DNA of 64,000 bases from Candidatus Anstonellales archaeon (lineage in GTDB: Archaea > Micrarchaeota > Micrarchaeia > Anstonellales > CG1-02-47-40). The position numbers and the translations under genes are program-made. The notes beneath the pieces are model-generated. The model made no database searches and had not been told where the DNA came from. It worked only from the letters and a program-made list of their open reading frames with translations. The stretch covers positions 1 to 64,000 of the forward strand of contig JAWCQO010000004.1 in NCBI GenBank assembly GCA_038869735.1. Direction: 5' to 3'. The stretch's first letter is position 1, and each line of letters starts with the position of its first letter. Shown one piece after another: positions 24,177 through 47,836 of the stretch.

Positions 24177-24295
24177 AACTAACTCTTTGTAAAGCAAGAG
24201 TATAAAAATAAATTTCTCTTTTTTTGTTTTTCAAAGGCAACATTAAAGAAACATTTTTAAATCTTTTAGTAGCATATGATGTTGGCGATCCAGTT

Positions 24296-25360
24296 ATGGA
24301 TAGTTTGATAAAATCGGTAATTGGTGAGCGAGAGCCCGCTCAAAACGAAGTATTCGGCTCTGACCAAATTAAAATTGTGACTGTAGGAGTTGGCGGTGCA
24401 GGAAATAACACGATAAACCGCCTTATACGTGCAGGCGTAAAAGGAACAGAACTCGTTGCTGTAAATACAGATCGACAGCACCTCAATCAAATACACGAAA
24501 AAGCACACAAAGTCCTTATTGGAAAAAGCATTACTAAGGGTTTGGGTGCAGGCGGATATCCAGAAACAGGTGCAAAAGCCGCAGAAGTTGATAGGGCACT
24601 TTTGGAGAAGGAACTTGAAGGTGCGCACTTAGTTTTCCTCTGCGCAGGAATGGGTGGCGGGACAGGAACAGGAGCAGCTCCGGTGATAGCTCAGATTGCA
24701 AAGGAACAGGGCGCAATCACCGTTGCAATGGTTACCTACCCATTTAACCTTGAAAGAGCACGAAAGCTTAAAGCTGACGAAGGAATTGCAAATCTAAGAA
24801 AAAACGTAGACTCTGTAATCATTCTTGACAATAATAGATTGGTAAAGCTAGTTCCCAATCTTCCAATGAACGAAGCTTTCTCAGTTGCAGATGAAATTCT
24901 TGCGAAAGCAATTGGAGGACTCGTATGGACAATTACGCAGCCTTCATTAATAAACATAGATTTTGCAGATGTGCGTGCAATTGTTCAGGGAGGAGGAGTT
25001 GGATTTATTGCAGTTGGAGAAGGCAAAGGGACCGATAAGGTCAGAGGGGCTGCTGAGGGTGTGCTTCGCAATAAGCTGTTGGATGTAGATTACGAAGGCG
25101 CAAACGGAGCACTCATCCACATATCTGGAGGAGCAGACCTTACGCTTGGTGATGCGATAAAGGCAGGAGAGATAATAACAGAAAAGATGGACACGCAAGC
25201 CAACATAAAATGGGGAGCACGTTTGATACCTGGCTATGACGGAAAGTTAGAAATAGTAGCTATAGTAACAGGAGTCAAGGGCGCCTCGGTGCTGGGCATG
25301 TCCTTTGAAGATGTCTCAGCAAAAAAGGTTACTTACGACGATATAGAAATAATCGGGTGA
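24296..25360 (+). CDS. ftsZ: Cell division GTPase FtsZ, first copy
   Basis: This 354-residue tubulin-fold GTPase polymerises into the division ring. It has the N-terminal V-G-V-G-G-A-G-N-N, the tubulin signature G-G-G-T-G-T-G, the T-Y-P-F loop, and the T7 loop N-I-D-F-A-D-V with catalytic Asp. An upstream TTG (24224) would add 24 residues with no FtsZ similarity; ATG 24296 gives the usual short N-terminus and lies about 40 nt below a TATA-like TTTTTAAAT. The second ftsZ begins 10 bp after its stop. A 50-bp block in its GTPase motif is identical to the neighbour. Confidence 0.96.
24632..24681 (+). repeat. 50-bp block identical to 25707-25756
   Basis: These 50 bases, covering the G-G-G-T-G-T-G motif, are identical to the block 1075 bp downstream in the second ftsZ. 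A further 22-bp identity follows at 24696-24717 and 25771-25792. Flanking codons differ at many synonymous sites, so protein constraint alone does not explain the identity. Confidence 0.85.
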
Positions 25361-25370
25361 GGTGACTATA

Positions 25371-26432
25371 ATGCTTGAAGGATTTTTGCATTCTGCCCTT
25401 GAACACAACAACCCTCCAAACGAAGATGCAGTAGGAGACAATGACATAAGGATAGCAGTTGTAGGAGTCGGTGGTGGCGGTTGCAATACCATTCATCGCC
25501 TTATGCAATCAAACCTTAAAAGTGCAACCACAATTGCAGTTAACACAGATCATCTCCATCTACGAAGTATATCGGCTCACAAGAGAATCTTAATAGGCCA
25601 ATCGATAACAAAGGGTCTTGGTGCTGGGGGTTTTCCAGAGGTAGGACAAAAGTGTGCAGAGATATCAAAAGACAAGCTTTCTGAAGTGCTATCCGAAAAT
25701 GACCTTGTTTTCCTCTGCGCAGGAATGGGTGGCGGGACAGGAACAGGAGCAGCTCCTGTAGTAGCACAAGTTGCAAAGGAACAGGGCGCAATAGTAGTTG
25801 CTATTGTTACATACCCCTTCAATCTGGAGCGTATAAGAATACAAAAAGCCCAATGGGGACTTTCCCATTTGACGAAGGTATGCGATACCGTTGTGGTAAT
25901 TGACAATAACCGGCTAGTCCAATATGCACCAAATATTCCGATAAATGATGCATTTAATTTAGCAGATAACATTACTGGAAGAGCAGTTAAGGGAATCTGT
26001 GACACAATAATGTTTCCGTCTCTCATGAATATTGACTATGCAGACGTAAAATCAGTAATGGAGGAAGGCGGAGTTTCACTTATCTCTGTTGGCGAAGGAA
26101 AGGGACCGGATAGAGTTGAGAAAGTTGTAAAGAGTACTCTTGAACACCCTCTTCTTGATGTTGACTACGAAGGAGCAAGGGGAGCTCTTTTACATATCGG
26201 AGGCGGTTCCAGCCTAACACTCGGAGAAGCAATAGAGATTGGCGAAAAGCTAACTGAAGCATTTGACAAAAATGCAAATGTCAAAATGGGAGCAAGACTG
26301 ACTCCAGAATACGGGGAGGATGTTTCCGTGACGGCTATAGTCACAGGCCTAAAACAGACTCCTTCAATATTCAGTCAGCAAACAACAGACGCCGACGAGG
26401 TAAAGGGATTAGAAGAGCTATCTCTCCTATAG
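25371..26432 (+). CDS. ftsZ: Cell division GTPase FtsZ, second copy
   Basis: This 353-residue FtsZ paralogue has the same motifs: V-G-V-G-G-G-G-C-N near residue 27, [15 protein letters not shown], and the T7 loop N-I-D-Y-A-D-V. It therefore should bind and hydrolyse GTP. The Shine-Dalgarno-like GAGGTGA at 25359-25365 fixes ATG 25371 over GTG 25362. It is cotranscribed with the first copy. Many archaea have two FtsZ proteins with distinct roles (ring assembly and constriction); tandem placement here implies balanced expression. The C-terminal tail is short and acidic, without a recognisable bacterial-type conserved tail. Confidence 0.96.
   Translation: MLEGFLHSALEHNNPPNEDAVGDNDIRIAVVGVGGGGCNTIHRLMQSNLKSATTIAVNTDHLHLRSISAHKRILIGQSITKGLGAGGFPEVGQKCAEISKDKLSEVLSENDLVFLCAGMGGGTGTGAAPVVAQVAKEQGAIVVAIVTYPFNLERIRIQKAQWGLSHLTKVCDTVVVIDNNRLVQYAPNIPINDAFNLADNITGRAVKGICDTIMFPSLMNIDYADVKSVMEEGGVSLISVGEGKGPDRVEKVVKSTLEHPLLDVDYEGARGALLHIGGGSSLTLGEAIEIGEKLTEAFDKNANVKMGARLTPEYGEDVSVTAIVTGLKQTPSIFSQQTTDADEVKGLEELSLL
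25707..25756 (+). repeat. 50-bp block identical to 24632-24681
   Basis: This is the second copy of the identical block within the GTP-binding motif of the second ftsZ, in the same reading frame and at the same place in the protein as the first copy. Confidence 0.85.
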
Positions 26433-26788: not shown

Positions 26789-27433
26789 ATGAAATCAGCA
26801 GTTCTTTTTTCTGGCGGTAAGGATTCAACTATGGCAGCTTTTTTCTCATTGTTTCAAGGATGGAATACAACTCTAATTTGCGTCCAATCAGAAGAGGATT
26901 CTTATATGTTTCATCATCCAAATACCGACTTTTGTAAATTACAAGCGCACTCAATGGGCTTGCCTATACACTATATACGAACAAACAAGGCGCGCGAGTT
27001 GGCTGACCTTAAAGCTCATCTTGAAAAGATCAAAACAGATTGCATAGTATCTGGAGCTGTGGCTTCAGAATATCAAAAACAACGCATAGACGTTATAGCT
27101 GAAGAACTAAACATCCCTTCTTTTTCTCCGTTATGGCACAAGGGAACCCAAATTCTGGAGGAAATTGCCCAATATCTTGAAATCTACATCGTTCACGTAG
27201 CTGCCGATGGTTTAGGAAGTGAGCTGCTTGGAAAAAGGCTGACCCTTACCGAAATATATAATCTTTCAAAACTAAACATCCATCCTTTTTTTGAAGGTGG
27301 AGAAGGAGAAACTTTTGTTTCAGATGCTCCGTTTTTTAGAGAACGATTGGAAGTACTAGCGTGGGATTACCTTTGTGGTTCAACTCATTTCACCGCTAAG
27401 ATATCAAAGATACGTGTTCATAAAAAATTCTAA
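26789..27433 (+). CDS. dph6: Diphthine-ammonia ligase (Dph6 family)
   Basis: This 214-residue PP-loop ATPase begins with the motif F-S-G-G-K-D-S-T (residues 7-14) and carries V-S-G-A-V-A-S-E-Y-Q-K-Q-R near residue 89 and P-L-W near residue 114, as in Dph6/ATPBD4. This enzyme amidates diphthine on elongation factor 2, the last step of diphthamide synthesis. The late motif F-E-G-G-E-G-E-T-F-V is also typical. It starts at ATG 26789, leaderless by spacing from the box above. It overlaps the convergent minus-strand gene by 4 bp. Confidence 0.92.
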   Translation: MKSAVLFSGGKDSTMAAFFSLFQGWNTTLICVQSEEDSYMFHHPNTDFCKLQAHSMGLPIHYIRTNKARELADLKAHLEKIKTDCIVSGAVASEYQKQRIDVIAEELNIPSFSPLWHKGTQILEEIAQYLEIYIVHVAADGLGSELLGKRLTLTEIYNLSKLNIHPFFEGGEGETFVSDAPFFRERLEVLAWDYLCGSTHFTAKISKIRVHKKF

Positions 27434-28125
27434 CTCACCCTTTCCAATCGATCTATAATATCATCCAACTCGCTTCCATACATTTCCTTTATTTTGACAG
27501 TGGCTTGGACGTTAATGTTCACAGGTATCTCTTTTTTTATCTTTATCCCATATCTGCTTCCGTTTTGGGTGTCTACGAATATTTCCTGCCTAATTGGGAG
27601 AGTCTGTCCAAACTTAAACTCAGTAACCTGTCCTGTTGTGGAAATCGCAGTAACCTTCTCAGGCAGCTTCAGATTAAATAAAACAGGAATCCTAAAATTT
27701 GGGGGGAATACTTCATCCAATGGTATCTCTTCTTCGATTTGCACAGTCGTTCTAATGGGGGATGAAGATAAAATCACGTCCTTTGCCTGAAGCGCTTTTA
27801 AATCAGCAATTATCGCAGGAAGCTCAGACCTAATTTTTCCACTTCCTCCAATATCAACGATGTTTAGTACAAGAGATATCAAGGCAAGTACAAAGGCTGC
27901 CCCAGCCAGGATTTCAGCTTTTTTCAAATTATCTTTGCTCTCTATTCTTTTTTCGCCATACTCCCTTTTGATAGGAGCAGAAAAATCGCTCTTACTGCCA
28001 GATAATGATTGGGGGATTTTTGCTACTCCTAACTTTTTATCAGTTGAGCTGTCTTTTCTTTTAGATTGTCCATACAATATGCCGGCAGGTTGATCCGAAT
28101 ATTCCTCCTCTGCCACAAACACCAC
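27430..28125 (-). CDS. Single-span membrane protein at the end of the six-paralogue operon
   Basis: I do not recognise this 231-residue protein. Its first 75 residues are charged and probably cytoplasmic, one membrane helix (AGAAFVLALISLVLNIVDI) follows at about residues 76-96, and the last 130 residues are beta-rich and outside. They alternate short strands with charged turns and end in a helix, Y-G-S-E-L-D-D-I-I-D-R-L-E-R. It starts at GTG 28125 after an AGGTG box and lies 13 bp downstream of the last of six paralogous membrane proteins, so it is probably their partner, perhaps the extracytoplasmic or linking component. The function is unknown. Confidence 0.8.
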   Translation of the reverse strand: MVFVAEEEYSDQPAGILYGQSKRKDSSTDKKLGVAKIPQSLSGSKSDFSAPIKREYGEKRIESKDNLKKAEILAGAAFVLALISLVLNIVDIGGSGKIRSELPAIIADLKALQAKDVILSSSPIRTTVQIEEEIPLDEVFPPNFRIPVLFNLKLPEKVTAISTTGQVTEFKFGQTLPIRQEIFVDTQNGSRYGIKIKKEIPVNINVQATVKIKEMYGSELDDIIDRLERVS

Positions 28126-28138
28126 CTCAAAATCAAAA

Positions 28139-29137
28139 TCATATTAATTTTATAAGCCCTCTTCCAAGCTCAGCAAGATCTGCTGAAAATAAGGCAGACG
28201 TGCTTCTAATAAAGGTAAACGTAATTATCAATGCCACTACTGGAAAAAATGTTGATTGAAGATACAAAATAGAAACGTTTTCGCCTATATGAAAGATAAG
28301 ACTGGTCCAGCTTGGAAGATTCTGTCCAACGTCCCTTGCTATTAAATTGTAACCAGCGATATCATCGGGGCAAATTCTTCTATCATATATTTCAACGTTA
28401 CCAATACTGGTACAGAACTCATCAGCGCTACCTTGAATCGCTACGAGAATAACATAAGACATAGGGAAAACAAAGAAGCACCCTATAGCGAGGGCAATAA
28501 GAAAACCTCCCAATCCACGCGAGATTGGAAAGACTCTAAGTATAAGGCCTGCTGGAAGAAACAAGTTTAGCATTGAGACCTCAAAGAATACAAGTAGATT
28601 GTATATAATATATTGAAACATAATAATCCACAAAAGCTTCTTTGTAACGTAATCACCGAGGCTTACAACAGACGAAATGACTGTTGAGGATAGATTCCAT
28701 CCTTCTGCTCCAGAAGAATCCACAGAAAATGTTTCAAATGGTTTCACAAACAACATTATAGAATAAATACTCGAATATGCTAAAGTTTCACATTCAATAA
28801 CGTTTCTAATATATCCTTTTGCTAAATCAAATGGCCCAGTAACGGGTCCGGGATTAACGTTTCCTCCGGTTACAGAATAAATCACAATACCAGATATTTC
28901 GTATGAAATATTCCACAAAAATGATATTACCCCTATTATGCAAAAAACAATAAGAAACCCTACCAATACCTGAGAATACTCACTCTTTGCCCATTTCTTA
29001 ACGTTTTGTAGGTTTAATCCTATTGAAATCATATAGATAACTGTAGTTATAAAAAATGTCACTAGCAAAGCAAGAATATTGATAACATACCAATCCTGGA
29101 AGAAAACCCGGTGAAATATCTCTATTGGATTTAGCAC
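28139..29137 (-). CDS. Polytopic membrane protein, paralogue 6 of the cluster
   Basis: This 332-residue protein has about six membrane helices. The N-terminal part has an I-Y-M-I-S motif followed by W-A-K-S-E-Y; the centre has L-P-A-G-L-I-L-R-V-F with S-R-x-x-G-G-F-L-I-A and F-F-V-F-P; the C-terminus ends F-I-R-S ... L-I-K-L-I. These positions match the other five proteins of the operon. Two Cys in a long outside loop may form a disulfide. It starts at GTG 29137, on the base next to the stop of the preceding gene, so translation is coupled. The family is not one I can name. Confidence 0.85.
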   Translation of the reverse strand: MLNPIEIFHRVFFQDWYVINILALLVTFFITTVIYMISIGLNLQNVKKWAKSEYSQVLVGFLIVFCIIGVISFLWNISYEISGIVIYSVTGGNVNPGPVTGPFDLAKGYIRNVIECETLAYSSIYSIMLFVKPFETFSVDSSGAEGWNLSSTVISSVVSLGDYVTKKLLWIIMFQYIIYNLLVFFEVSMLNLFLPAGLILRVFPISRGLGGFLIALAIGCFFVFPMSYVILVAIQGSADEFCTSIGNVEIYDRRICPDDIAGYNLIARDVGQNLPSWTSLIFHIGENVSILYLQSTFFPVVALIITFTFIRSTSALFSADLAELGRGLIKLI

Positions 29138-30214
29138 TTATATCATCCTCAATATAGTTGATAAATCCATTTCCTCTCCAAGAAGCATCGTAAAGTCCCG
29201 GATAAAAGGAATAAAAACAGCAAAATTTATTGCTGGAAGAAATACACTTGCAATAAATATATAAAAAGCAAGGGACACTATATAAAATAGCTTTATTGAT
29301 ATACTTCCGCTATAGCGGTTTATATTTATGCCTTGATAACCATCTCTACTCAAGTTTTCTGCTTCCCCATAATTCCCTTGCGCAATTCTCCCTCCCTCTA
29401 CTTCTTCCCATATCCCCCTGTATTCCTGACTGGTTTGAGGCTCATCTAATCTTTCAAATATCCCTGTCTGACTTCCGCGGATTATAAAGTCATTTATCAC
29501 CAACATTGCAGGATAAATAAGAAAGACTCCAAATGAAAAAGCAATAAGTGAGCCCCCAAAAAGTCTAGTTGGCTCAAATGCGCGGAGCAAGACCCCGATT
29601 GGAAACAGATACGTAAGCGTAGCTATAGAGAGATACTCCAAAATCTTTATTTGCATAATGACAAATAATAGAGAGGTAGCTATTCCTTGAGCTACAATCG
29701 AGAATATTTGAATTAATATGTTTAGACCAGCCGCCGGTCTTAGAGAAAAGCCCATCCCCAAAGGGATGGCATTATGATGAACCCCCGCCATAGTTTGAAA
29801 AACCCAATACACAGCACCAACATATACTAAGGCTTGCAGATTCTTTTTTCTTATGTATCCCAAGTAATCATATGTGAGGTCATAGAAATTCATATTTTGA
29901 AATCGAGCGTCATTGTATCTTTCTCCAAAGATTAACCCCATCTTAGACGGCTTTAATTCGCACATCAGACCGACTGTTCCAACAGCAACAACAGCAATTG
30001 CAGCTGTCACTAAAAGTTGAACGAGCTCTGCCCTACTCCAAACCTCAAGTTGCTGATTTCTAAAGAATTTTGATGCCATAAATATTAGCGAGAGAATCCC
30101 GCTAGATATTAAGACTGCAAGTGCAACGTTGACTCTCCAATCCTGCCAGAAAAAAGAATAAGTTGAAGCTATCTGCCCGCCTGTCATGCATACATTAAAT
30201 ACAAAATCCGCCAT
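29138..30214 (-). CDS. Polytopic membrane protein, paralogue 5 of the cluster
   Basis: This 358-residue protein has about six helices. Shared motifs are F-M-A-S with W-S-R-A-E-L-V-Q near residue 56, the central F-P-I-G-V-L-L-R-A-F with T-R-L-F-G-G-S-L-I-A and L-I-Y-P, and the C-terminal F-I-R-D-F ... L-G-E-E-M-D-L-S-T-I-L-R-M-I. A hydrophilic outside loop of about 60 residues (near 235-300, rich in Glu, Gly, Asn) is specific to this copy. It abuts its neighbours with gaps of 0 and 3 bp. The sixfold repetition points to a shared complex rather than separate functions. Confidence 0.85.
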   Translation of the reverse strand: MADFVFNVCMTGGQIASTYSFFWQDWRVNVALAVLISSGILSLIFMASKFFRNQQLEVWSRAELVQLLVTAAIAVVAVGTVGLMCELKPSKMGLIFGERYNDARFQNMNFYDLTYDYLGYIRKKNLQALVYVGAVYWVFQTMAGVHHNAIPLGMGFSLRPAAGLNILIQIFSIVAQGIATSLLFVIMQIKILEYLSIATLTYLFPIGVLLRAFEPTRLFGGSLIAFSFGVFLIYPAMLVINDFIIRGSQTGIFERLDEPQTSQEYRGIWEEVEGGRIAQGNYGEAENLSRDGYQGININRYSGSISIKLFYIVSLAFYIFIASVFLPAINFAVFIPFIRDFTMLLGEEMDLSTILRMI

Positions 30215-30217
30215 CGC

Positions 30218-31366
30218 TTATAACACCCTCAATATATCTCCTATATTAACGTCTGTTCCAAAGTGTCGCGCAAACTCCCTTATAGCAGTAAATGTTACGT
30301 ATATAATCAGCACCGGAATCATAACTCCAACTATAAAAATAAAGTAGGCCGCATTCTTGATAATTTCAATCAAAGCATTTAGAAGAACAAAAAATATCCC
30401 CACCCCTACAAATCCAACGTTCCCAAAAATAATGCTTCCAATCAAAGCTATAATAGCTCCAGAAGAAAGTGTTAAAATAAGACGTTCGAAAAAATCACCC
30501 CCTAAATGGGTTCTAAAATAACTTACTCTGCCATCAGGCGTATCTATACTGCTTCTTTCATAATACCTTTCAACTGCGCTTGCAGAGACGTTTATCATAG
30601 CTGGATAGACTACATAAAATCCCAGTGCGATAGCAATAAGAGCTCCACCCAATGCCCTTGTAAAAGAAAAAGTCCGAAAAAATATACCAATAGGAAGTAA
30701 AAATGACATAAGATACTTCTTTGAAAAGCAAAGAACAAATAGATTCACAAACCATATCCCCCACGTCGTTGTCATCATTCCCACAACCATGTTGAGCATA
30801 TCAACAATCGGTTTTAGAACATAAGACATACTAAATGAAAAGCCACCCAGCAATCCAATAGCGCTTCCAATTACTATTTGAGTACTAGATAACACTGTTA
30901 CTAGAAAATTTACTATAGTGGCCACCATCAAATCAGCACTCAACGTTATCAAAATTGCATTTGACAACTCAAGTGCCCTATCAATGTTATTTGTCTCATC
31001 CCCGACTCCGAAGCTCTTAGTGAGTATATCTACCCCTACGTTTGTTATAATCAAAAAGACGATAATTACACCAGAAAAGATAATTTGTTCAAGAGTATTT
31101 TTTGCCCATAAAATACTGGTTTGGTTATCCAGAAGATGCCCCCCCATGTAAACAAGGGCGCAGATAGAGAGAGAAATAGCAAGGGAGATTAATGTGATGA
31201 CAGGCCATTCAACATTCGTAAACGCAATACAACTTTCTCTGCTTATCCCTACTTCTCTCAAATACCGCCTTGTCTGGTTCATCTGGTCCTCCCAAATGCC
31301 GGTAGAAGATCCTAAGCCTATAAGATATATGAGAAATAAAACTGTGATAATAGCCCTTATCTTCAT
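30218..31366 (-). CDS. Polytopic membrane protein, paralogue 4 of the cluster
   Basis: This 382-residue protein begins with a cleavable-looking signal (about 1-22), then has Y-M-G-G with W-A-K-N-T-L-E-Q near residue 88, and the central motif L-P-I-G-I-F-F-R-T-F with T-R-A-L-G-G-A-L-I-A and V-V-Y-P. Its C-terminus is F-T-A-I-R-E-F ... F-G-T-D-V-N-I-G-D-I-L-R-V-L. The outside loop between the last helices includes a charged R-Y-Y-E-R stretch. It starts at ATG 31366, 1 bp after the stop of the upstream paralogue. Confidence 0.85.
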   Translation of the reverse strand: MKIRAIITVLFLIYLIGLGSSTGIWEDQMNQTRRYLREVGISRESCIAFTNVEWPVITLISLAISLSICALVYMGGHLLDNQTSILWAKNTLEQIIFSGVIIVFLIITNVGVDILTKSFGVGDETNNIDRALELSNAILITLSADLMVATIVNFLVTVLSSTQIVIGSAIGLLGGFSFSMSYVLKPIVDMLNMVVGMMTTTWGIWFVNLFVLCFSKKYLMSFLLPIGIFFRTFSFTRALGGALIAIALGFYVVYPAMINVSASAVERYYERSSIDTPDGRVSYFRTHLGGDFFERLILTLSSGAIIALIGSIIFGNVGFVGVGIFFVLLNALIEIIKNAAYFIFIVGVMIPVLIIYVTFTAIREFARHFGTDVNIGDILRVL

Positions 31367-31367
31367 C

Positions 31368-32528
31368 TCATATCAACCTTGTAAGACCGGCAATCTCTAC
31401 GTCTCCTCCAAGAAGAGGCGACAATATTTTTATACTGGCTATTGTAGACATAATTGCGACAAAAGGCATGAATAGGGAAAAAATCATCATCCTAGCTACT
31501 GATTCAAAGACGCCCCCTTCACCAATTATCCATGCACTACCTCTATATGTCCTTAAAAAAGCGTGAGGGACGTCTACAAGAGACCTAAAAATTTCCAAAA
31601 TGTGTTGAATCAATGACCTAAGAATTCGAAGATATCCTTCCATTGTTGGTTGAGACTGTTCTCCAACCAAATTTATTCGAGTAGGTTCTATCTCAAAAAG
31701 TGATTCGGGAGTAGGCATACTTTCGCGCGTAATATTACCACCCCCTCCTATCTCAAAAGGATTGATTAATCCTAATCGGTCGATGTTTAAGGGATTAAGC
31801 GTTCTTCCACTATATCCAATGAGTATATATCCTGATAGCGCATACATAAATGGATAAACAAAATAAAAACCAACGGCAATAGCAATCATGAGCCCCCCAA
31901 GTCTTCTTGTTAGAAAAAAGTTACGAAGGAAAAATCCAAATATAAGAAAAATAGGGAAAATAGTCTGCCATATAATATCCAGTAAATACTCCTGAAATCG
32001 TAAAGCAATCATCATTTTATATAAAATATCTATTGCTATTAGAAGAGCATCCGAAACCATTGACAATGCGGCAAATGGCTTAATTGAGAGATCTGACATA
32101 GGTATAATTGTCAGCCTTAAACCTACTCCTATATCTGAGAGAAACATAAACGTTGAATTTATCCAAATAATCTGCCCTGCCATCTGCTTTGAGGAATTGA
32201 AAATTATCCCCAAATAATTTTTAGCTAACGAGACTTGACACGGCTCGGTGTTCGTACAAACAACCGAAGATAAGGGATCAGCTGCCAATATAAGCCTGGC
32301 GTATCTATCTGCTCCACTATTAAACGCTTCAGCTGCAAATGTAATTAGTATCAAAATTATGACCGATAAAAACATATGAGCTATTTCACTTCTCGCATAA
32401 GCTTCCAACGACTCAATAGAAAGCATTTTGCTTATCGCATAAGCAATAGCAACAAGTGATATGGTTGAGACAATCGCAATACCAAGCAAAAACCAATATC
32501 TTCCAATCAGAATTTCGGCAATGAGCAT
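31368..32528 (-). CDS. Polytopic membrane protein, paralogue 3 of the cluster
   Basis: This 386-residue protein has an N-terminal A-Y-A-I-S with Y-A-R-S-E-I-A near residue 44, a pair of Cys in C-T-N-T-E-P-C that probably form a disulfide outside, the central F-F-L-R-N-F with T-R-R-L-G-G-L-M-I-A and F-V-Y-P, and C-terminal L-G-G-D-V-E-I-A-G-L-T-R-L-I. The loop after the central helix is long (about residues 235-340) and includes amphipathic helices. It starts at ATG 32528, 3 bp after the preceding gene. Confidence 0.85.
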   Translation of the reverse strand: MLIAEILIGRYWFLLGIAIVSTISLVAIAYAISKMLSIESLEAYARSEIAHMFLSVIILILITFAAEAFNSGADRYARLILAADPLSSVVCTNTEPCQVSLAKNYLGIIFNSSKQMAGQIIWINSTFMFLSDIGVGLRLTIIPMSDLSIKPFAALSMVSDALLIAIDILYKMMIALRFQEYLLDIIWQTIFPIFLIFGFFLRNFFLTRRLGGLMIAIAVGFYFVYPFMYALSGYILIGYSGRTLNPLNIDRLGLINPFEIGGGGNITRESMPTPESLFEIEPTRINLVGEQSQPTMEGYLRILRSLIQHILEIFRSLVDVPHAFLRTYRGSAWIIGEGGVFESVARMMIFSLFMPFVAIMSTIASIKILSPLLGGDVEIAGLTRLI

Positions 32529-32531
32529 TTA

Positions 32532-33491
32532 CTACCCCATTTTTTGGCTTAGAAATTTATTCATGCTCTTTATAAATGTCATCGTAATCAGCATTGATAG
32601 ACCGGGAAGAAATATCCCCTGCATCAATATTACTGATAACTTTACAAATAGTTTCATTACTAACTCATAATTCCATAAAACCCTCTCGGTTATTCTTTGA
32701 TGGTATTCCCCGTCTTGGTTTTCTTGAATGCTTTGTCTATAATCACTAATCCAATCATACGGAGCAATTGTCTCTTGTCTGGGGTCTTGACCTGCTGGTG
32801 GAGGAAGAAAATCAATCACACCATCTCTTGCATCGATGTACCTCATTATGTTGTAATGCATGACATATGTAAGAGGAAATACGAAATAAAACCCAAAAGA
32901 AGCGGCAATGAGGAGTACCCCGGCATCCCTAGTGGGAGGGAAAATCCTAAGAATTATACCTGCAGGCAAGACCAAAGTTAGGGTCGTTGCCTTTATTAAC
33001 TGGAGACCAATACTTTGTGCTACCAGTGAAGAAGCAAAGGGTGAGATGACGAACACAACCCATTCAAAGATAGATGCTAAAAGCGATAAAAAACTCAACG
33101 GTTGGAACCTTATGCTCCAGCCACCCCCAGCTCCAAAGTGGAGCGCTGCCCCACCCATCCATTCAAAAAGAATCACTAACCCCTCCATTTGAACAAGTGT
33201 CGGAATCGTAAGCTGAGAGATCATTATGTCAAGATATTTCAAGGCGATTTCAAAGTAATCCACCCCAAATATACTCATACTTACTCCGATTGCCATATTA
33301 GCAAGAAAATACGTCATAAGAAGCAAAACCACTGAAAAGAAAACCTGGTATGTCTCGAGAGTAGCAAAAGCTTCCAACTCAGATTTTCTAAATATCTGAG
33401 CTAACATATAAATAAGCGAAATCGAAGTGACCATAACTAATATACTTATTGCAATCATCTCAAACTGGCTTCCTCCAATCTCCAAAGCCAT
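32532..33491 (-). CDS. Polytopic membrane protein, paralogue 2 of the cluster
   Basis: This is the shortest copy (319 residues). It has the N-terminal I-Y-M-L-A with F-A-T-L-E-T-Y-Q near residue 42 and the central motif L-P-A-G-I-I-L-R-I-F with T-R-D-A-G-V-L-L-I-A and F-V-F-P. The C-terminus (T-F-I-K-S) lacks the final L-G-G-D/E-V-E-I...L-I segment seen in its neighbours. A loop of about 60 residues after the central helix is acidic and Gln-rich. It starts at ATG 33491, 14 bp after the first paralogue, and precedes the next by 3 bp. Confidence 0.85.
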   Translation of the reverse strand: MALEIGGSQFEMIAISILVMVTSISLIYMLAQIFRKSELEAFATLETYQVFFSVVLLLMTYFLANMAIGVSMSIFGVDYFEIALKYLDIMISQLTIPTLVQMEGLVILFEWMGGAALHFGAGGGWSIRFQPLSFLSLLASIFEWVVFVISPFASSLVAQSIGLQLIKATTLTLVLPAGIILRIFPPTRDAGVLLIAASFGFYFVFPLTYVMHYNIMRYIDARDGVIDFLPPPAGQDPRQETIAPYDWISDYRQSIQENQDGEYHQRITERVLWNYELVMKLFVKLSVILMQGIFLPGLSMLITMTFIKSMNKFLSQKMG

Positions 33492-33505
33492 TAGTCAATC
33501 ACCAC

Positions 33506-34771
33506 CTATACTAGCTTTGAAAGCCCAAATATCTCAACTTCTCCCCCAATTGAAGCCGCAATACTTCTGTAAGCTGTTACAGTTAAAATTATCTCTATAA
33601 CTACCCCAACAAATACAAAAGATAGGCTCCACCCAATCTCATTCATCGTTTCTACCGTTGCATAGTAAAAAATAACAGAACTCCTCCACAGGGACGCAAG
33701 GGAAGAGACGTATCTTAAAGTAAATCTTATATAATTCATTGATATATCGATGAGCTGTTCTGTTACTTCAACAACCGCGCTTAACAGTCGCCAAGCTCCA
33801 CAAATTATTCTCCTAAAAAATCCCCAATTTTGAGGCTGCCCACTGCACCATCCGCCACTTTCATTACTTCTCTCATCCTCGTGATTTTGATAAATGCGTC
33901 TGCTTGCTTCTCTCCCTTCCTCAACAACCGTATTCATAAAATTCCCTGCTTGCGGGTTTGGTTCAATGGTAAGGGGGAATTCGTACTCTCTTATCTGAGG
34001 CATTTGGGTGTTAATATATAGTTCTTCGACTACTATCACGGAGAGTGGGAAAACAAAATAAGCTGTAAAGGCAAAAGCTATAATACTAGAACCTATCCTC
34101 CTTGTTATAAAAAAAGCTCTTAAAAAAAGCCCAAGGGGAAGGAAGACGCTTAACATACTATCCTTAAAAAACAATAATAGCACTTTTTGAAGAGAAATAA
34201 GACCAATTGCACCTCCAACAAGGTCCGTGATCAAAATATTACCTTCTGCAACCGGTACGACTCCCACACCAGGTCCAAACGAAATAGAAAATCTCATTAT
34301 CGAATGAGGAGGAAAAAAAAAGGTTGAGTGTAATGTGGATACCATGCCCAGCACTATCTCGTTTAAATTCAGTGATATGTACTTACTAACTAGCATCCAG
34401 AACATAGAATCAAGAAAGATTGAAGGCCGCATATAAATGTCCGCGCTACCACCAATAATCTGGCTTATCATTGAGAATAGGCCCAGGGTAAAAAAAGTGA
34501 TTATTACTATAACTCCAGTTATAAAAACTTCATAAAGCTCCATCTTTGCCCATGACTTAATATTTGGAACTGCTAAAAATTCAGACAACATATATGCTAT
34601 TGCAGTGGCGCCTACCCCAATTAAAAGTGCGGCACCAATCGGAGCAGCAAATCCTTGGAATCTCCCAATAAAATCTTCAACATTTTCGTCAACGGTTTGT
34701 TGCGCATCTACGCTTTGGATCAACAACAAAGAAAACACAAAAAATAAAGACGCTAAGCTTCTAATCCTCAT
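33506..34771 (-). CDS. Polytopic membrane protein, paralogue 1, first gene of the operon
   Basis: This 421-residue protein has a clear signal peptide (about 1-24, ending in V-D-A-Q) and then Y-M-L-S with W-A-K-M-E-L-Y-E near residue 75. The central motif is L-P-L-G-L-F-L-R-A-F with T-R-R-I-G-S-S-I-I-A and F-V-F-P. The C-terminus is L-G-like G-G-E-V-E-I-F-G-L-S-K-L-V. The outside loop of about 100 residues holds two Cys (W-C-S-G and I-I-C-G). Its ATG is preceded by a purine-rich AAGGGG and by the TATA-like element shared with LeuRS. As first gene of the run it probably sets expression for all seven. Confidence 0.87.
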   Translation of the reverse strand: MRIRSLASLFFVFSLLLIQSVDAQQTVDENVEDFIGRFQGFAAPIGAALLIGVGATAIAYMLSEFLAVPNIKSWAKMELYEVFITGVIVIITFFTLGLFSMISQIIGGSADIYMRPSIFLDSMFWMLVSKYISLNLNEIVLGMVSTLHSTFFFPPHSIMRFSISFGPGVGVVPVAEGNILITDLVGGAIGLISLQKVLLLFFKDSMLSVFLPLGLFLRAFFITRRIGSSIIAFAFTAYFVFPLSVIVVEELYINTQMPQIREYEFPLTIEPNPQAGNFMNTVVEEGREASRRIYQNHEDERSNESGGWCSGQPQNWGFFRRIICGAWRLLSAVVEVTEQLIDISMNYIRFTLRYVSSLASLWRSSVIFYYATVETMNEIGWSLSFVFVGVVIEIILTVTAYRSIAASIGGEVEIFGLSKLV

Positions 34772-37720: not shown

Positions 37721-40700
37721 ATGAGATACAGAAGTATACTCATTTCAACACTTACTCTATTACTTTTTTTATCTTCATTACCACTATCAGAAAAAAACAT
37801 AACAAGACTCCAGGTTTATGTTGATGGACTTACTGTTCATGCTCAACTTACGAAAGTGGATATGGGCTCATCATTTCGGGTTTATCCTGAAGAATTGGAG
37901 AGACAGGTTAGGTCGTTTTTAAGTGAAAATAGACAAGAACAAAGACAGAACGAACAGATCCCGTTTTTAGTTCAACGCACAGAACCACTTGCTGGACAAA
38001 GTCTTGATTTCTTTCTATATAACCGAGAAACCAGTGAGTATCAACCAGTTTTCGGATGTAGCGGTCTTCTTACAGATGAGCGCGGAATAGCGAATTGCAC
38101 TGTAAGCGAGATTTCCGGTTCAAAAACGTGTTCTGTTATAAACGTGTCTTATTCGGGAACAACAGCCTATGAGCCGTCTACTACTACTGGAATAGTTTGT
38201 GATGAATCAAACAACGGCCTCTCTGCATTTGGTCTTGCTACTGAAAACTACCTTAGGAATAGGCAGACCTACATATGCCTACCCATCTTCCTAATTCTAG
38301 GGCTCCTCCTTGCTTCTCTCTACTATTCAGGAAAGAACCCCTTAAATATTTTTGATATAACCACTCCGCGGCTTCCAAGACCAAAAAAACACCGCATCAC
38401 TCCAATCATTATCCGCTCACACCTAATTAGCAATATGTTGATGAATATGAGTCTCCTTCGCAGAGCTCAACTGGATATCATCAACGCAGCCGATGCGATT
38501 GTCCGGATTCTTCCTTCTGATAATACTCTTCATAGCGACCTTCTACAAGCTTATAGTGAAATACGATCTGCCAGACGTATCCCCCCCCATATTCGTTGTG
38601 CCGCCATCGCAGCGCTCTTTTCTTCTGGACCTCGAGCAGCAGAGACGATTCTAAGAAATGCATATCAAAGAGGTGCAGTTAGAAGCATACAATCTCTAAA
38701 AAAGAACGAAACAGATACATATCTTTCGAGTATACTCTCAAGATCCGGATTAGATAAGGAAACCCAACAAACATTAATGCGCTTTCACAAATTTATTCAA
38801 GATCGTAGTAGTGCTGCGATAGTAACTTATGAGAAACACGAAAAGCTGAAAGAAACGTATGGATATAGCGGTTCCATCGCCAAGTTACTCCTATCCCTTT
38901 CTTATAATAGTTACCGGTTAGACCGCACCTTGCCTCGAACAGTAGATAAAACTGTTCTAGCCACCGTAGGAAGAGTTCCGATTGTTGGCCCTCCATTAGC
39001 ATCAGTTATTCGCAGCGCCGCTAAAGTTGCATTATTGCCTATAAGGACTCCCCTAAATTTTGCTATCCTTCCTCTTGAAGTTGTAGGACAGACTAAGATG
39101 GCTGTCAAATCAGCTAAAAGCATTCTAAACATTTTTTCAGGTTCTTTGGATAACAAACGAGTGGGTAATTTTCATGATGCGCTTTCTCAAATCAAAAACA
39201 TTTGCAGACATATAACACCAGAGACAGTCAGAGAAGAGGTTATCTCCTACGCAATCAGAAAAATAAACGAAGCTTATTTTGGGAGTTCGATTGATGAAGA
39301 GACTAGAAACCGCCTTCTAAATATAGTGGGTGCACGGTTAGCGAGTCCCCTACGAAATGGCGACTACGATGAAGCGTATAGGAGAGCATTATTAATTATG
39401 GCTAGATATAATCTAGTTGATCAGCAAACTATTGACTCAATCAAGGCTGTTGTACGCGATATAGATAGAAGGTATTATTCGTATATAGGAAATAGAGATA
39501 ATAGTCTAGATGCGGGCATACACTACTTGAGTGATGTGCATGCTCTTATACGTAAATTTCAAACTTCCCACCCACAAGAGCAAGTATTCTTCCTAACAAC
39601 AAGATTTTATGACCCTCAAAATCCGACCACAGAACGAGCAACTGCTGCATTCCATTACTTCCTTAGTCTTCAGGCCATTCAACGTTTACGCTCTGGTATA
39701 GACACTAGAACTACATTTGCAGACATCTACACTGAATTACATAGAAGAGAGAGTCAGGAACTTGAAAGAGAAGCTAACTCTGTTGCACAAATAGTCGCAA
39801 TTCGGTACACTCTTTCTCCTAACGCTCCACAAAGACGACAAACTCGAAACCCACATGATGAATTCCTTCATTTTCTTTTAAACCGAATTGAAATAAAAAT
39901 CAACAGAATGCGTCCTGCAGAAGTTTATCGCGACTTTTCCCAAGTTCTCATGGAGAATGCTACAATTTTGAGGTTTTATCAAGACCACATTTTACCGTTA
40001 CTAGCAAAGACTAGTTCCGGAGCAAACCTTTCAGAACAAGAGCTGTATCAAGAGTTGATGAAGCATGGGGTTGATTGGAGAACAGCTACAAGGCTTATTT
40101 ATACTCCACCAAGCAACCTAACACAAAATAGCACGCCTGAGTCCGAAAGAATTGGGAGCGGAATTGTTCGAGGATGGATAGTAACTGGAGACGGCACCTT
40201 CAAACCACTTTTTATAGAGGGCATGTATCACACCTTTGTAACAACAATTTTTGGTTCGTCCTCTCCCCTATTGGATGAAGGCCTGACCAGGACAAACAGC
40301 CAAGGCCAACGTATATCTGTAATGGGAGCTTCAGATGCAGATAAAATAGTCTCCGTTTACAGCAGGGATAACAATGATTTGTTAGCAACACATGCTGGAG
40401 GACCCATAAGAAGACTGTTCTATCAAATTCAGCAGCCGTTTCTAGCCGGTGCAAAAGTTATCTTCGCAGCAAAAGAAGAGTTTGAAACAGTCTTTGCTCT
40501 CCAAGCCCTCGAAAGGAAAGCGTATAAGGATATAGAGCGAAATTACAACCTCGGAACGTATTTTTCTCAAGTGCCAACGCTCCGGCAGATCGAAGAACAG
40601 ATAGCTAGCGAAAGTGACAAAACTATGCGCCGAAAGCTAGAAAGAAAACGTCAAGACATGATACTGGAAATCTTAAATAACCGAGATATTAGCAGGACAT

Positions 40701-41959
40701 TTAAAGATGCCTATGAGGCCTCACTACTATACGACTTAGTATTTCTAAAAAACGAGGTAGCAAACTTTATGAGAGACCCGCGAGGAGGAAGTTCTTCCTA
40801 TGGTATAAGACAAGCAATCCACACCGGATATCATACAGGTCAATCCTTTTTTGAACCTGCAAGTTATTTTCTAACACGCGGATACGTTATAGGTGAAGAC
40901 TACTTGCGTTCCCTCCTATGGTTGCCTGAAAGACTAGGCCGACTTATAACGTACTTCTCCCGAGCCCCAATGGCACTGCAATCCGGCTATCCTTCTGTTT
41001 ATGAAGGAACCCATGAACCTGTTCGCCCCATGCGAGGGCGGGCACTTATGGATTTTTTTTCACCTTGGAAAAATCTTGATCGTCTATCGAACATACGTCT
41101 CCCAGAAATACATCCGACAAGAGGCTTGACACCTGTCGGTTGGTCTTATTTCGACGAATACAAAAGAACTCAAGCTCTTCGTTGGCTTGTGCCCGGAAGA
41201 ACACTCCAGCAACGTCTTAACATACATGAATCTTATTGGGATAACTTTCAAAACCTGTACGGTACTCAAGAGATGCATAACATCAACGAGATATTCAATA
41301 ATATTGTTGGAGACACAACCATTGACTTATTTAGAAATGTACGTCAACAATCAAGGTGGTGGCATTGGTTCTTCCAAAGGGGGGAGAATGTCACCTTACA
41401 GCTCACCGGTTATCTGCTTGCCACCGGTCCTGAATCAGCCCTGAGGACACCCGAACTCTATATCAATATTTATACTACTAATATATACAAAGCTTACCCT
41501 GTCGGGATGATGTATGTAGATGACGACCCATCAAAATTTACGACACAGCATCATCTAAATGCGAGACTTGCAAATAGAATAATTCGTGATTATAATTACC
41601 TTGTAGACCTCTATCCAGATATCAAAGAAGATGCACTCAGAAACATATGGAGACGGGATAAAATGTCAGCTGAGGAACTTGAATCAACCCGCAAACACGA
41701 ATACAGTAATTATGAGTTTAGGATATTTTCTCCGTTTTTCCTTGCAAAATGGCTTGCTCCAAAAACCTATAATCAAGCTCTCGATAGTGCGGTTCTGAGA
41801 AGTATTGATGCAAGAACAGCGTATTACGAAAATATTAATCTCTATACTTCACTATTATTCCCTCCCTTGCTCTTATCTATGGGAGCTGAAAACTTAGGAT
41901 ATTGGATACGTAATGTAGCAAGAAGAATACGAGCAAGAAGAACACACGCAGGACCTTGA
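37721..41959 (+). CDS. Giant membrane-anchored protein with large cytoplasmic helical domain
   Basis: I do not recognise this 1412-residue protein. It begins with a signal peptide (about 1-22). An outside region with an Ig-like strand pattern (G-Q-S-L-D-F-F-L-Y-N, then L-T-D-E-R-G-I-A-N-C near residue 125) and four Cys follows. One membrane helix (about 185-205) leads to about 1200 residues that should be cytoplasmic. That part is rich in Arg, Glu, Leu and Tyr and almost all helical, with several blocks separated by loops. No Walker motif, nuclease or kinase signature is seen. It follows LeuRS by 100 bp and begins after a TATA-like CTTTTAAAC. Together with the six-paralogue operon it may form part of an envelope assembly; that link is only proximity. 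Confidence 0.78.
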   Translation: MRYRSILISTLTLLLFLSSLPLSEKNITRLQVYVDGLTVHAQLTKVDMGSSFRVYPEELERQVRSFLSENRQEQRQNEQIPFLVQRTEPLAGQSLDFFLYNRETSEYQPVFGCSGLLTDERGIANCTVSEISGSKTCSVINVSYSGTTAYEPSTTTGIVCDESNNGLSAFGLATENYLRNRQTYICLPIFLILGLLLASLYYSGKNPLNIFDITTPRLPRPKKHRITPIIIRSHLISNMLMNMSLLRRAQLDIINAADAIVRILPSDNTLHSDLLQAYSEIRSARRIPPHIRCAAIAALFSSGPRAAETILRNAYQRGAVRSIQSLKKNETDTYLSSILSRSGLDKETQQTLMRFHKFIQDRSSAAIVTYEKHEKLKETYGYSGSIAKLLLSLSYNSYRLDRTLPRTVDKTVLATVGRVPIVGPPLASVIRSAAKVALLPIRTPLNFAILPLEVVGQTKMAVKSAKSILNIFSGSLDNKRVGNFHDALSQIKNICRHITPETVREEVISYAIRKINEAYFGSSIDEETRNRLLNIVGARLASPLRNGDYDEAYRRALLIMARYNLVDQQTIDSIKAVVRDIDRRYYSYIGNRDNSLDAGIHYLSDVHALIRKFQTSHPQEQVFFLTTRFYDPQNPTTERATAAFHYFLSLQAIQRLRSGIDTRTTFADIYTELHRRESQELEREANSVAQIVAIRYTLSPNAPQRRQTRNPHDEFLHFLLNRIEIKINRMRPAEVYRDFSQVLMENATILRFYQDHILPLLAKTSSGANLSEQELYQELMKHGVDWRTATRLIYTPPSNLTQNSTPESERIGSGIVRGWIVTGDGTFKPLFIEGMYHTFVTTIFGSSSPLLDEGLTRTNSQGQRISVMGASDADKIVSVYSRDNNDLLATHAGGPIRRLFYQIQQPFLAGAKVIFAAKEEFETVFALQALERKAYKDIERNYNLGTYFSQVPTLRQIEEQIASESDKTMRRKLERKRQDMILEILNNRDISRTFKDAYEASLLYDLVFLKNEVANFMRDPRGGSSSYGIRQAIHTGYHTGQSFFEPASYFLTRGYVIGEDYLRSLLWLPERLGRLITYFSRAPMALQSGYPSVYEGTHEPVRPMRGRALMDFFSPWKNLDRLSNIRLPEIHPTRGLTPVGWSYFDEYKRTQALRWLVPGRTLQQRLNIHESYWDNFQNLYGTQEMHNINEIFNNIVGDTTIDLFRNVRQQSRWWHWFFQRGENVTLQLTGYLLATGPESALRTPELYINIYTTNIYKAYPVGMMYVDDDPSKFTTQHHLNARLANRIIRDYNYLVDLYPDIKEDALRNIWRRDKMSAEELESTRKHEYSNYEFRIFSPFFLAKWLAPKTYNQALDSAVLRSIDARTAYYENINLYTSLLFPPLLLSMGAENLGYWIRNVARRIRARRTHAGP

Positions 41960-42003: not shown

Positions 42004-43473
42004 ATGGGGGTTGGGGGAGAAGGGAAATTACTAAAAAATAATAAAAATGCGTTTATGACTATTATCCTGCTATCAGAAATAATCGGTGATGTGGTGCAAT
42101 TTAGAAGGATTTTGTTTTTGTTTTTGTTTTTGTTTTTCAGTCTTATAGGATGCATCAGCCAGCAGAGTCAACCCCCGCCCGTTTTTAATCTAAATGAGAT
42201 ACTACAGCCATCAGATCAACAAAGACTTTGTCAGGAGCCAAGCGACCCACAAAACCCTTGCAAATGCTACGTTTGTACGGTAAGTACTAATTCCAGCCCC
42301 AGCGCAATAACTGAAGCTTCTCTTGAAGGACAGCGGTGCTTATTTATTGGATGCAACGGAACACCGGAAAGCTACATCCGTCTATTAAATCCTCAACGCA
42401 CATCTAATCCTATTTACGTCATAAATTTCTTTGCATTTGGGGGAGGACCAGATTTTGAGTCTTTTTCTGTGGCAAACAGATATTGTAATAACATGATGAA
42501 TTTGCCTGCTATGTGGATCAATCCTAACACAATTAACTTTAGAAGCAACGACGAAATTGGCTTCGAACAACACGAACAAGTAGGTACGATTGACTCAAGA
42601 GATATCGAGGATTATGTAAAGTCATATCTACAAAACCATATAATCCCCATGTTCATCCTCTATAGCGATAACGGAACAATCAACGACGCCAAACTAGAGG
42701 ATTTTGCTTCCCTTCTTAATAGCACTGGCCCTGTCTACATTTCTACCCAACCTACTATTATGACGAGCACAACTCCTGCTTTGTCCATTCGACATGCCCG
42801 GACTATAAAGAGATATTGCCAAAAATGCCTCGTAATACTTTCCTATTCCCCAGATAATATGAATTACCTTAACTACTCCATCACCCCATCTGATAACGTT
42901 GATTTTCTTGGGATGGAAATAATAATAGACCCCAACGATATAGTTCCTCTTAACTGCAATCTGAACTCAAAACTTATTCAATACATGTGGGGAGTAAGAG
43001 AGAATTTAGCTCGCTATAGAAAGCCAACTTTTTGGAGCATTTTTGCAATAAAAGAAGGAATATCAGATGACCGTAGGTGTGAGATAAGTTCGCAACAAGT
43101 TGGAGAGGCATATGACTTAATTTTTCAATCAGCACAGTCTCTTGCTGCATATGGGCTTTCAGGAATTTCGCTTCTCTCCTTCTCTGACAGACTCCCGCCA
43201 TATCTCTCCGCCTATACTGGAGTAGGACTTTTTAGGTCTGATGGAAGTCAAAAGAATCCCCAACTAAACTTTTTCTTTGACTGGTGTAACTATTATTATA
43301 CGAACAAACTTCCTGGGGGCTTTGAAAGTGAGGTTGACTATTCAAAAAACTTGATAAGTCTTGTTTATCAGCCTGAGCTAAGCATACCTCATTGTGCCTT
43401 TGCCATGCAAACGAATCTACAGCGTAGAATTTCCCACTCAACCGGCCCTTATACTCCACCCTCACTTAGATAA
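42004..43473 (+). CDS. Large lipoprotein with possible TIM-barrel-like domain
   Basis: This protein has a basic stretch F-R-R, a hydrophobic core built from Phe-Leu repeats, and the lipobox S-L-I-G-C, so it should be lipid-anchored outside. The mature part (about 440 residues) has regularly spaced strands and motifs such as P-T-F-W-S-I-F and S-G-I-S-L-L-S-F, which suggest a barrel of the glycoside-hydrolase type, plus several Cys. No family can be named. The outer ATG at 42004 puts the lipobox at residue 50. ATG 42055, GTG 42091 or GTG 42094 (after GGTGAT) would give a more normal signal peptide, and one of these is probably the true start. It is 44 bp after the giant protein and probably cotranscribed. 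Confidence 0.75.
   Translation: MGVGGEGKLLKNNKNAFMTIILLSEIIGDVVQFRRILFLFLFLFFSLIGCISQQSQPPPVFNLNEILQPSDQQRLCQEPSDPQNPCKCYVCTVSTNSSPSAITEASLEGQRCLFIGCNGTPESYIRLLNPQRTSNPIYVINFFAFGGGPDFESFSVANRYCNNMMNLPAMWINPNTINFRSNDEIGFEQHEQVGTIDSRDIEDYVKSYLQNHIIPMFILYSDNGTINDAKLEDFASLLNSTGPVYISTQPTIMTSTTPALSIRHARTIKRYCQKCLVILSYSPDNMNYLNYSITPSDNVDFLGMEIIIDPNDIVPLNCNLNSKLIQYMWGVRENLARYRKPTFWSIFAIKEGISDDRRCEISSQQVGEAYDLIFQSAQSLAAYGLSGISLLSFSDRLPPYLSAYTGVGLFRSDGSQKNPQLNFFFDWCNYYYTNKLPGGFESEVDYSKNLISLVYQPELSIPHCAFAMQTNLQRRISHSTGPYTPPSLR
42110..42137 (+). repeat. TTTTTG hexamer repeat in a signal peptide
   Basis: Three perfect and two partial TTTTTG units encode alternating Phe and Leu in the hydrophobic core of the lipoprotein signal. 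Change in unit number would keep the frame and alter only the length of the core. Confidence 0.8.
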
Positions 43474-46636: not shown

Positions 46637-47833
46637 ATGCGCAGGTACATGCTAATGATACCCAACATATACGAAGGTAACTATAAGCGACTTGTGATTT
46701 TCCCTCTGATTTTAATATTAACATCCATTTTTTTTATACCGCAAATAAAACAAGGTGTGGACTTTAAGGGCGGAGTCTTAATCACCCTCCATACTTCTGC
46801 TCCAGTAAATATAAGTATAGCTGAATCCACTCTCCAAAGCGAGCTTAAAACAGCGGTAAGCATCAAGCAGATAGAGACAGCTATAGGCAACTCGATTGAA
46901 ATAAGCTTCCCTCTTGATGAAAATATATCAAGAGCAGAAAAAATAAAGGAAGAATTCTTTTCACTTGTTGACGACGCTTCGCGGCTTGAAGCTGATGCAT
47001 CTGTTCTAGAGTCAGACCCAAACTCAACATCTACCGGAATTTCGCCCGATGCAAAAGAAAAGTATACAGAAGCTCGCGAAAGACTTAACTTGTATGCAGA
47101 TGAACTATTTCTGTTAGCAGGACTTAATAAACAAGCTGCCAAAGCCAATAGCACCAACGAGCTCCGCAGAATGGTTAGCGATGCGTATAACTCTATCAAT
47201 AGTGATTATCAAACAAAAATAAGAAGCACAATAGAAAAACACATCCCTTACTCGTCAATATCCTTTGAGCTAGTCTCCTCAACGCTTTCAGAGAGATTCC
47301 TCTCCTCAGCATTATGGGTTATTCTGGTCTCATCGGCGCTTTCAATAGCAGTTGTTTTTTTTGTTTTTCGCACATTTATACCTAGTATTGCCGTACTGAT
47401 TGGAGCGGCATCAGATATAATCATAGCATTGGGCGCAATGGGTCTTTTTGGAATACCACTTACTCTCGCTTCATTTGCAGCTCTACTTATGTTAATAGGT
47501 TTTTCCCTTGACACCGACATCCTTCTTACGATGCGCACCCTCAAGAGGTCGGAGGGAAGAGCCCGCGATAGAGCTTTTGAATCAATGAAAACGGGTTCAA
47601 CTATGAGTATGGCAGCAATTACTGCGTTTGCATCCCTTCTCATCCTCTCACTCGCAACAAACATATCTACATATTACGAAATATCCTCAGTTGCTCTTGC
47701 CGGTCTTTTTGGTGATTTGTTTGCTACATGGGGACTTAACGCCGTTATCATTCTTTGGTATGCGGAAAAGAAAGAAAAGGAAGCAGAGGCAATAAAAACC
47801 CACTTCGCTTCTCTTTATGAAAGGAAGGAATAA
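46637..47833 (+). CDS. secF: Protein-export membrane protein SecF
   Basis: This 398-residue protein has TM1, the P1-type region with V-D-F-K-G-G-V near residue 41, and a C-terminal five-helix block with the conserved S-L-D-T-D-I-L-L-T and G-S-T-M-S-M-A motifs (about residues 297-350). SecF with SecD uses proton motive force to help translocation after the Sec channel. The outside region between TM1 and TM2 is about 175 residues, including a helical insert near 110-185, and is longer than in most archaeal SecF proteins of about 290 residues. SecD follows 3 bp later, in the usual archaeal order secF-secD. Confidence 0.94.
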   Translation: MRRYMLMIPNIYEGNYKRLVIFPLILILTSIFFIPQIKQGVDFKGGVLITLHTSAPVNISIAESTLQSELKTAVSIKQIETAIGNSIEISFPLDENISRAEKIKEEFFSLVDDASRLEADASVLESDPNSTSTGISPDAKEKYTEARERLNLYADELFLLAGLNKQAAKANSTNELRRMVSDAYNSINSDYQTKIRSTIEKHIPYSSISFELVSSTLSERFLSSALWVILVSSALSIAVVFFVFRTFIPSIAVLIGAASDIIIALGAMGLFGIPLTLASFAALLMLIGFSLDTDILLTMRTLKRSEGRARDRAFESMKTGSTMSMAAITAFASLLILSLATNISTYYEISSVALAGLFGDLFATWGLNAVIILWYAEKKEKEAEAIKTHFASLYERKE

Positions 47834-47836
47834 CTA

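Follow-up and report, generated by a model that had tools for sequence, protein, structure and literature searches.

A 64,000-nucleotide stretch of the genome of Candidatus Anstonellales archaeon (assembly GCA_038869735.1, contig JAWCQO010000004.1, positions 1 to 64,000; hereafter the window) contains an array of six adjacent minus-strand genes encoding polytopic membrane proteins. Analysis of the open reading frames (ORFs) confirmed all six, with intergenic gaps of 0, 3, 1, 3 and 14 bp. The first gene of the operon (position 1, 33506..34771, 421 residues) encodes a protein with a signal-peptide-like N-terminus and has orthologs in both the A and B array types described below. It is followed by position 2 (32532..33491, 319 residues), the shortest of the six and, like position-2 orthologs in general, without the C-terminal tail, and by position 3 (31368..32528, 386 residues), which in B arrays holds very large inserts. 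Position 4 (30218..31366, 382 residues) was assigned by ORF and alignment, and positions 5 (29138..30214, 358 residues) and 6 (28139..29137, 332 residues) complete the array. When the window's own genome was searched with the position-1 protein, the other five were matched at E values of 1.7e-15 to 3.7e-7, and the six proteins are true paralogs. Their alignment contains ten invariant columns, most of them inside a central LPxGxxLRxFxxTRxxGGxLIA motif, and the parts held in common are this motif, an N-terminal helix pair with a WAKxEL-like loop and the C-terminal tail. The type of tail tracks position: position 5, for instance, has a FGEEIDVTNLTRLI-like and position 6 a GADLAEIGRGLIKLI-like tail, whereas position 2 has none. 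A preliminary description made from the DNA alone had reported six adjacent paralogs, and its sizes, gaps, motifs and missing tail in the second gene were all borne out. The proteins are referred to here as VirB6-like because membership of the Pfam TrbL/VirB6 family was not found.

The genome from which the window derives (884 kb in 15 contigs, approximately 97% complete; G000) encodes further members of the family. In addition to the array in the window, designated A, a second array, designated B, is located on contig 5 (L009) and comprises six genes encoding proteins of 680, 834, 766, 427, 356 and 346 residues, several of which carry Cys-rich ectodomains. A solo copy encoding 326 residues is present on contig 2 (L010). 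Large ectodomain insertions were observed in B-array members of this genome (L009 10153-14700) and of others (L034, L038, L039 and L090); position 1 of the B array in the window's genome contains DUF4215-type Cys-rich repeats, and B position 3 reaches 1143 residues. The B array of this genome is followed by a gene for a 1431-residue Cys-rich protein (f4, L009 224-4519), which likely represents a B-specific partner. A large Cys-rich secreted protein was found after the B array at 10 of 10 B loci compared, with lengths of 962-1855 residues where complete and one copy interrupted by a contig end.

The preliminary description had asked whether copy number is conserved among relatives, and it proved to be not random but fixed at six in a fixed order. 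Every one of the 44 non-redundant complete arrays from across the phylum contained exactly six genes, and nine solos were found in addition. Within the order to which the window belongs, all 20 arrays from ten genomes, its own included, had six genes. A position-5 profile run against 84,980 species genomes yielded 27 loci, among them one in Candidatus Fermentimicrarchaeum limneticum (CP058998.1); nearly all were labelled Micrarchaeota, the other labels including Woesearchaeota (one locus), Burarchaeum and Iainarchaeum-like. Twenty-three of these loci were complete and each contained six genes, the remaining four ending at contig borders, and more distant families yielded further arrays, again of six genes each. 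The family was present in 121 of 147 genomes of the class and in 38 of 39 genomes of a second, overlapping sample, which was taken from the phylum of the Iainarchaeum-like genome G151 and apparently came from one and the same group of genomes.

Orthology follows position in the array. In a tree of 123 core sequences each B position and A positions 2-6 formed clades of their own, A position 1 fell inside the position-1 clade, and for every leaf the nearest neighbour from another locus was of the same type and position. A larger tree of 273 sequences united 44 of 44 arrays at each of positions 5 and 6 and 38 arrays at positions 1-4, where the six deepest arrays were not resolved; the nine solos formed one clade (support 0.978). 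When profiles trained without these six deepest arrays were applied to them, the identity order ranked first of 720 permutations each time, although the six results are not independent because the arrays are related. The fixed number, fixed order and position-wise orthology indicate that the array predates the divergence of the sampled lineages and has been retained since. A and B arose later, by copying of a whole array.

Genes encoding an ATPase and a pilin were found beside members of the family in relatives. In early-branching lineages the gene order is f11, array, f1, f1, f2, f19, f6, f8 (gene families), several of these loci having f7 pilin genes just upstream, and around solos the order is f7, solo, f1, f2. 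Family f2 matched the Pfam models AAA_10, DUF87 and P-loop_TraG, the NCBIfam models CedB (3.6e-30), CedD (5.3e-19) and VirB4_CagE (2.3e-15), and a solved VirB4 structure (4ag5) at 2.1e-10, matches that identify it as a CedB/VirB4-type ATPase. Scores were below the NCBIfam ortholog cut-offs for CedB (105 bits against 700) and CedD (68 against 600), and these proteins are therefore relatives rather than orthologs of f2. By profile matching f7 is a VirB2-type pilin, since Pfam T4SS_pilin was matched by 11 of 13 members (best 5.4e-7), TrbC/VIRB2 by eight of 13 (1.8e-5) and TrwL of plasmid R388 at an E value of 8.8e-6. In the window's genome a pilin gene lies directly upstream of the solo (C2:103385-103636), with others elsewhere; contig 1 carries an f1-f2-f19-f6-f8 block (L094) and contig 5 a further group of f1, f2 and f6 (L095). 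All family-positive genomes tested contained the ATPase at E < 1e-130, whereas none of the 17 genomes without the family gave a match at that level. Family f1, with two transmembrane (TM) segments and a soluble domain, is a candidate equivalent of VirB3 or the VirB4 N-terminal domain and was also considered as a counterpart of VirB8; no relevant model was matched by it, and comparison with the PDB and R388 VirB4 gave solely coiled-coil-like chance matches. A constant association of two f1 copies with each array was considered and rejected, as in the window's order one array-type f1 and one f2 serve both arrays. No counterparts of VirB5 or VirB7-10 were recognised.

Fold models of positions 5 (model mfd21747c329e) and 6 (m305ff68c166c) were generated with AlphaFold2 and compared with known structures by VIA-align 2 and, for PDB entries, Foldseek. 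The position 5 model had a predicted local distance difference test score (pLDDT) of 79 and a predicted template modeling score (pTM) of 0.70, and that of position 6 a pLDDT of 85 and a pTM of 0.78. For position 5 the top VIA-align match was VirB6/TrwI of R388, which occupied ranks 1, 3 and 4 (Z 9.2, 8.7 and 8.6; 240-250 residues, the top match covering 240/261), and for position 6 the same protein was found at ranks 2, 3 and 6 (Z 9.0, 8.7 and 7.6). The VirB6/TrwI alignments spanned 208-250 residues, whereas most other VIA-align rows covered just part of the model. The N-terminal TM pair of the family also resembles the pilin (E 5e-4), and the same relation to the pilin has been reported for VirB6 with VirB2 and CedA with CedA1 (Beltran et al., PMC9905601). 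The VirB6 role of the paralogs is inferred from genomic context together with a moderate fold match.

Context, co-occurrence and fold taken together very probably place the arrays in a machine resembling Ced or type IV secretion systems (T4SS). That this is a chromosomal transfer machine whose VirB6 platform consists of six different subunits is our favoured reading and a probable one. Early-branching lineages retain a layout in which VirB2-like pilins, six VirB6-like genes, two f1 genes, the f2 ATPase and f19-f6-f8 accessory genes are grouped. The VirB6-like proteins would form a membrane platform and channel on which the pilin polymer grows, with the ATPase at the inner face powering pilin assembly, substrate passage or both. 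Because number and order are fixed, the genes form one operon and known counterparts act as a ring, a hetero-oligomer with one copy of each paralog seems somewhat favoured, the six occupying fixed and distinct positions within it. Duplication of the array gave rise to the A and B versions, and in the window's order a single ATPase block seems to be common to both; the solo protein with its own pilin and ATPase would constitute a second, single-subunit machine. Bacterial VirB6 forms a ring of five identical subunits (PMC9259494) that sits on top of a six-fold VirB4 base, and six subunits could match such a six-fold motor. The more specific proposal of an obligate hetero-hexameric platform, with six specialised paralogs in fixed ring order, a second B-type ring in many lineages and a change from homomeric to heteromeric assembly like that of MCM2-7 or CCT, is evenly balanced between being right and wrong.

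Several results weigh against the six-subunit VirB6 interpretation. In hmmscan searches of all six proteins against Pfam-A up to an E value of 5 there was no match to TrbL/VirB6 or any other Pfam family, the family members scanned against NCBIfam gave no match, and a HMMER profile search of PDB sequences was also null. Profile-profile comparison with nine bacterial VirB6 proteins was weak (best E 0.0056, probability 6.6%). The best of these alignments, whose register is plausible, placed LPxGxxLRxFxPTR on GPLFI..WQPTHRF, and position 6 yielded a different register; the central-loop Trp that is invariant after the GPLFI-like motif in the bacterial set (W199) has no invariant equivalent after the central motif of positions 5 and 6, and single-sequence hhalign with TrwI was uninformative. 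PHROGs gave nothing relevant for four scanned family members. The Z scores of 7.6-9.2 lie under approximately 13, where the tool warns of common helical arrangement, and Foldseek against the PDB returned nothing significant for either model. The fold claim therefore rests on the VIA-align ranking, and the match is supportive rather than proof. The window's genome carries the ATPase block on a different contig from the A array, and other genomes of its order likewise keep the two apart. Genome G084 has an array-type ATPase block (contig 31, L117) and no array was found; the contig ends 3.8 kb away, and the array is possibly missing through an assembly gap or loss. Finally, six subunits are unexpected given that known VirB6 is a homopentamer (PMC9259494). 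Relatedness to VirB6/TrbL, as the preliminary description had suggested, was thus upheld by context and the TrwI fold ranks as regards the kind of machine, but not as Pfam family membership; structure comparison with VIA-align placed VirB6/TrwI first for position 5 and second for position 6, and the Foldseek search it had proposed found nothing significant. Its two checks among relatives, on copy number and on a nearby HerA/VirB4-type ATPase, both spoke for it, the ATPase being located beside arrays in relatives and co-occurring with the family across genomes.

The homopentameric state of bacterial VirB6 (PMC9259494) also speaks for an alternative in which each paralog would form its own VirB6-like homo-oligomer, the six serving as alternative platforms for different partners or cargo. 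The strong divergence of outside loops among positions, the large Cys-rich ectodomains of B members and the retention elsewhere of duplicated secretion components for different substrates are consistent with such use. Paralogs in alternative use, however, normally vary in number and order, whereas here six are kept in fixed order throughout the phylum, a single array-type ATPase block serves up to twelve of them, and in Ehrlichia four VirB6 paralogs reportedly interact; we regard separate homo-oligomers as unlikely. More doubtful still is a different membrane complex that merely lies near a VirB4/HerA-type ATPase, for example one for polymer secretion, lipids or adhesion. The lack of a VirB6 sequence match, the only moderate Z scores and the separation of ATPase and arrays in the window's order would allow it, but pilin, family and ATPase genes occur in order around both solos and arrays, the ATPase co-occurs with the family, no other membrane-protein fold matches two of the paralogs over full length as well as VirB6 does, and the N-terminal region resembles the pilin.

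A further alternative concerns cargo and direction, namely that the system is a domesticated DNA importer acting strictly like Ced in DNA repair and not a host-contact machine. Among curated models the ATPase is closest to CedB and CedD, and the arrays are chromosomal and vertically inherited, the position-6 profile finding no relative on viral contigs. Against this, no DNA-repair-specific gene was recognised beside the arrays, and, as many Micrarchaeota depend on hosts, transfer between cells is no less plausible. Strictly Ced-like DNA import may be considered a credible but lesser possibility.

Compared with the R388 system, the models of two paralogs match the helical arrangement of VirB6/TrwI (PDB 7o3v, 8rtd, 8rt9) over full length with moderate Z scores, a VirB2-type pilin and VirB4-type ATPase are encoded alongside in Micrarchaeota relatives, and the N-terminal TM pair is pilin-like. 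In contrast, sequence similarity is not significant, R388 uses five copies of one protein where six different proteins are present here, and the VirB5 and VirB7-10 components of R388 lack recognised equivalents. The crenarchaeal Ced/Ted systems (CedA/CedE, CedA1, CedB/CedD; PMC9905601, PMC11868833) are likewise chromosomal, from monoderm archaea and reduced to a pilin, a VirB6-like channel and a VirB4-like ATPase. Saccharolobus CedA and CedE are two VirB6 paralogs for which a hetero-oligomer has been proposed (PMC11868833), but Ced/Ted has at most two such paralogs against six here, or twelve with A and B together, and the Micrarchaeota ATPase appears to be split from its TM/N-terminal part (f1 and f2). 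The rvh/VirB systems of the Rickettsiales, which are likewise host-dependent cells, encode four to five VirB6 paralogs (PMC2653234, PMC7648143) whose flanking parts are enlarged and divergent. The Anaplasma copies are tandem and co-transcribed, and four Ehrlichia paralogs are reported to interact in the title of a paper that both PMC7648143 and PMC12857230 cite (Bao 2009). These systems differ in being from diderm bacteria, in having four or five copies with recognisable TrbL/VirB6 domains and in retaining most VirB components, and theirs is a separate expansion. T4SS are also widespread in the Patescibacteria, another radiation of small epibiotic cells, and virB6 is essential for epibiotic growth in one strain (PMC12102498); these are bacteria, and a six-gene VirB6 array is not described in that work.

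No description of this array or of any Micrarchaeota T4SS was found in the open-licence literature, a scope that makes this weak evidence. Type IV pili and possible conjugative elements are all that the Mia14 genome paper mentions in this respect (PMC5498576). Nanotubes that bridge a DPANN symbiont and its host have been seen by tomography, but that study ascribed them to the host (PMC11329633), and no link to the array is claimed here. For the question of how DPANN archaea that depend on a host exchange material with it, the array system offers a phylum-wide, vertically kept candidate machine that is testable because pilin, motor and channel are all in hand. If the proposed assembly is correct, this DPANN lineage would possess a phylum-wide candidate cell-contact machine with a six-subunit platform in place of the five-fold bacterial VirB6 ring. 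The strict array of six in order would exemplify the natural conversion of a secretion ring from homomeric to heteromeric, in parallel to the VirB6 expansion of Rickettsiales, and it bears directly on whether VirB6 platforms must be five-fold.

Several genes flank the A array in the window. A minus-strand gene 13 bp downstream (27430..28125) encodes a 231-residue protein that has a single TM segment, and probably belongs to the operon; it is conserved only in the nearest relative (L031). On the plus strand, f3 (37721..41959) encodes a 1412-residue protein with a signal peptide, a short ectodomain, a TM segment at residues 183-201 and a long C-terminal part. The f3 family adjoins A arrays in several relatives and also follows some B arrays, although similarity between the window f3 and B-linked members is weak (12-24 bits), and f3 is a possible accessory subunit. 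Downstream of it is a gene for a 489-residue lipoprotein-like protein (42004-43473). No significant Pfam match was obtained for this protein, f3 or the B-linked f4, and a barrel fold suspected by eye in two of the three was not retained as a reading. A tandem pair of FtsZ-like genes is present at 24224-26432, and the same pair is found near the A array of the nearest relative (L031). A SecF/SecD-like pair (46637-49429) lies approximately 12 kb from the A array in the window and directly downstream of the A array at L037, L052 and L054, two of which belong to one genome.

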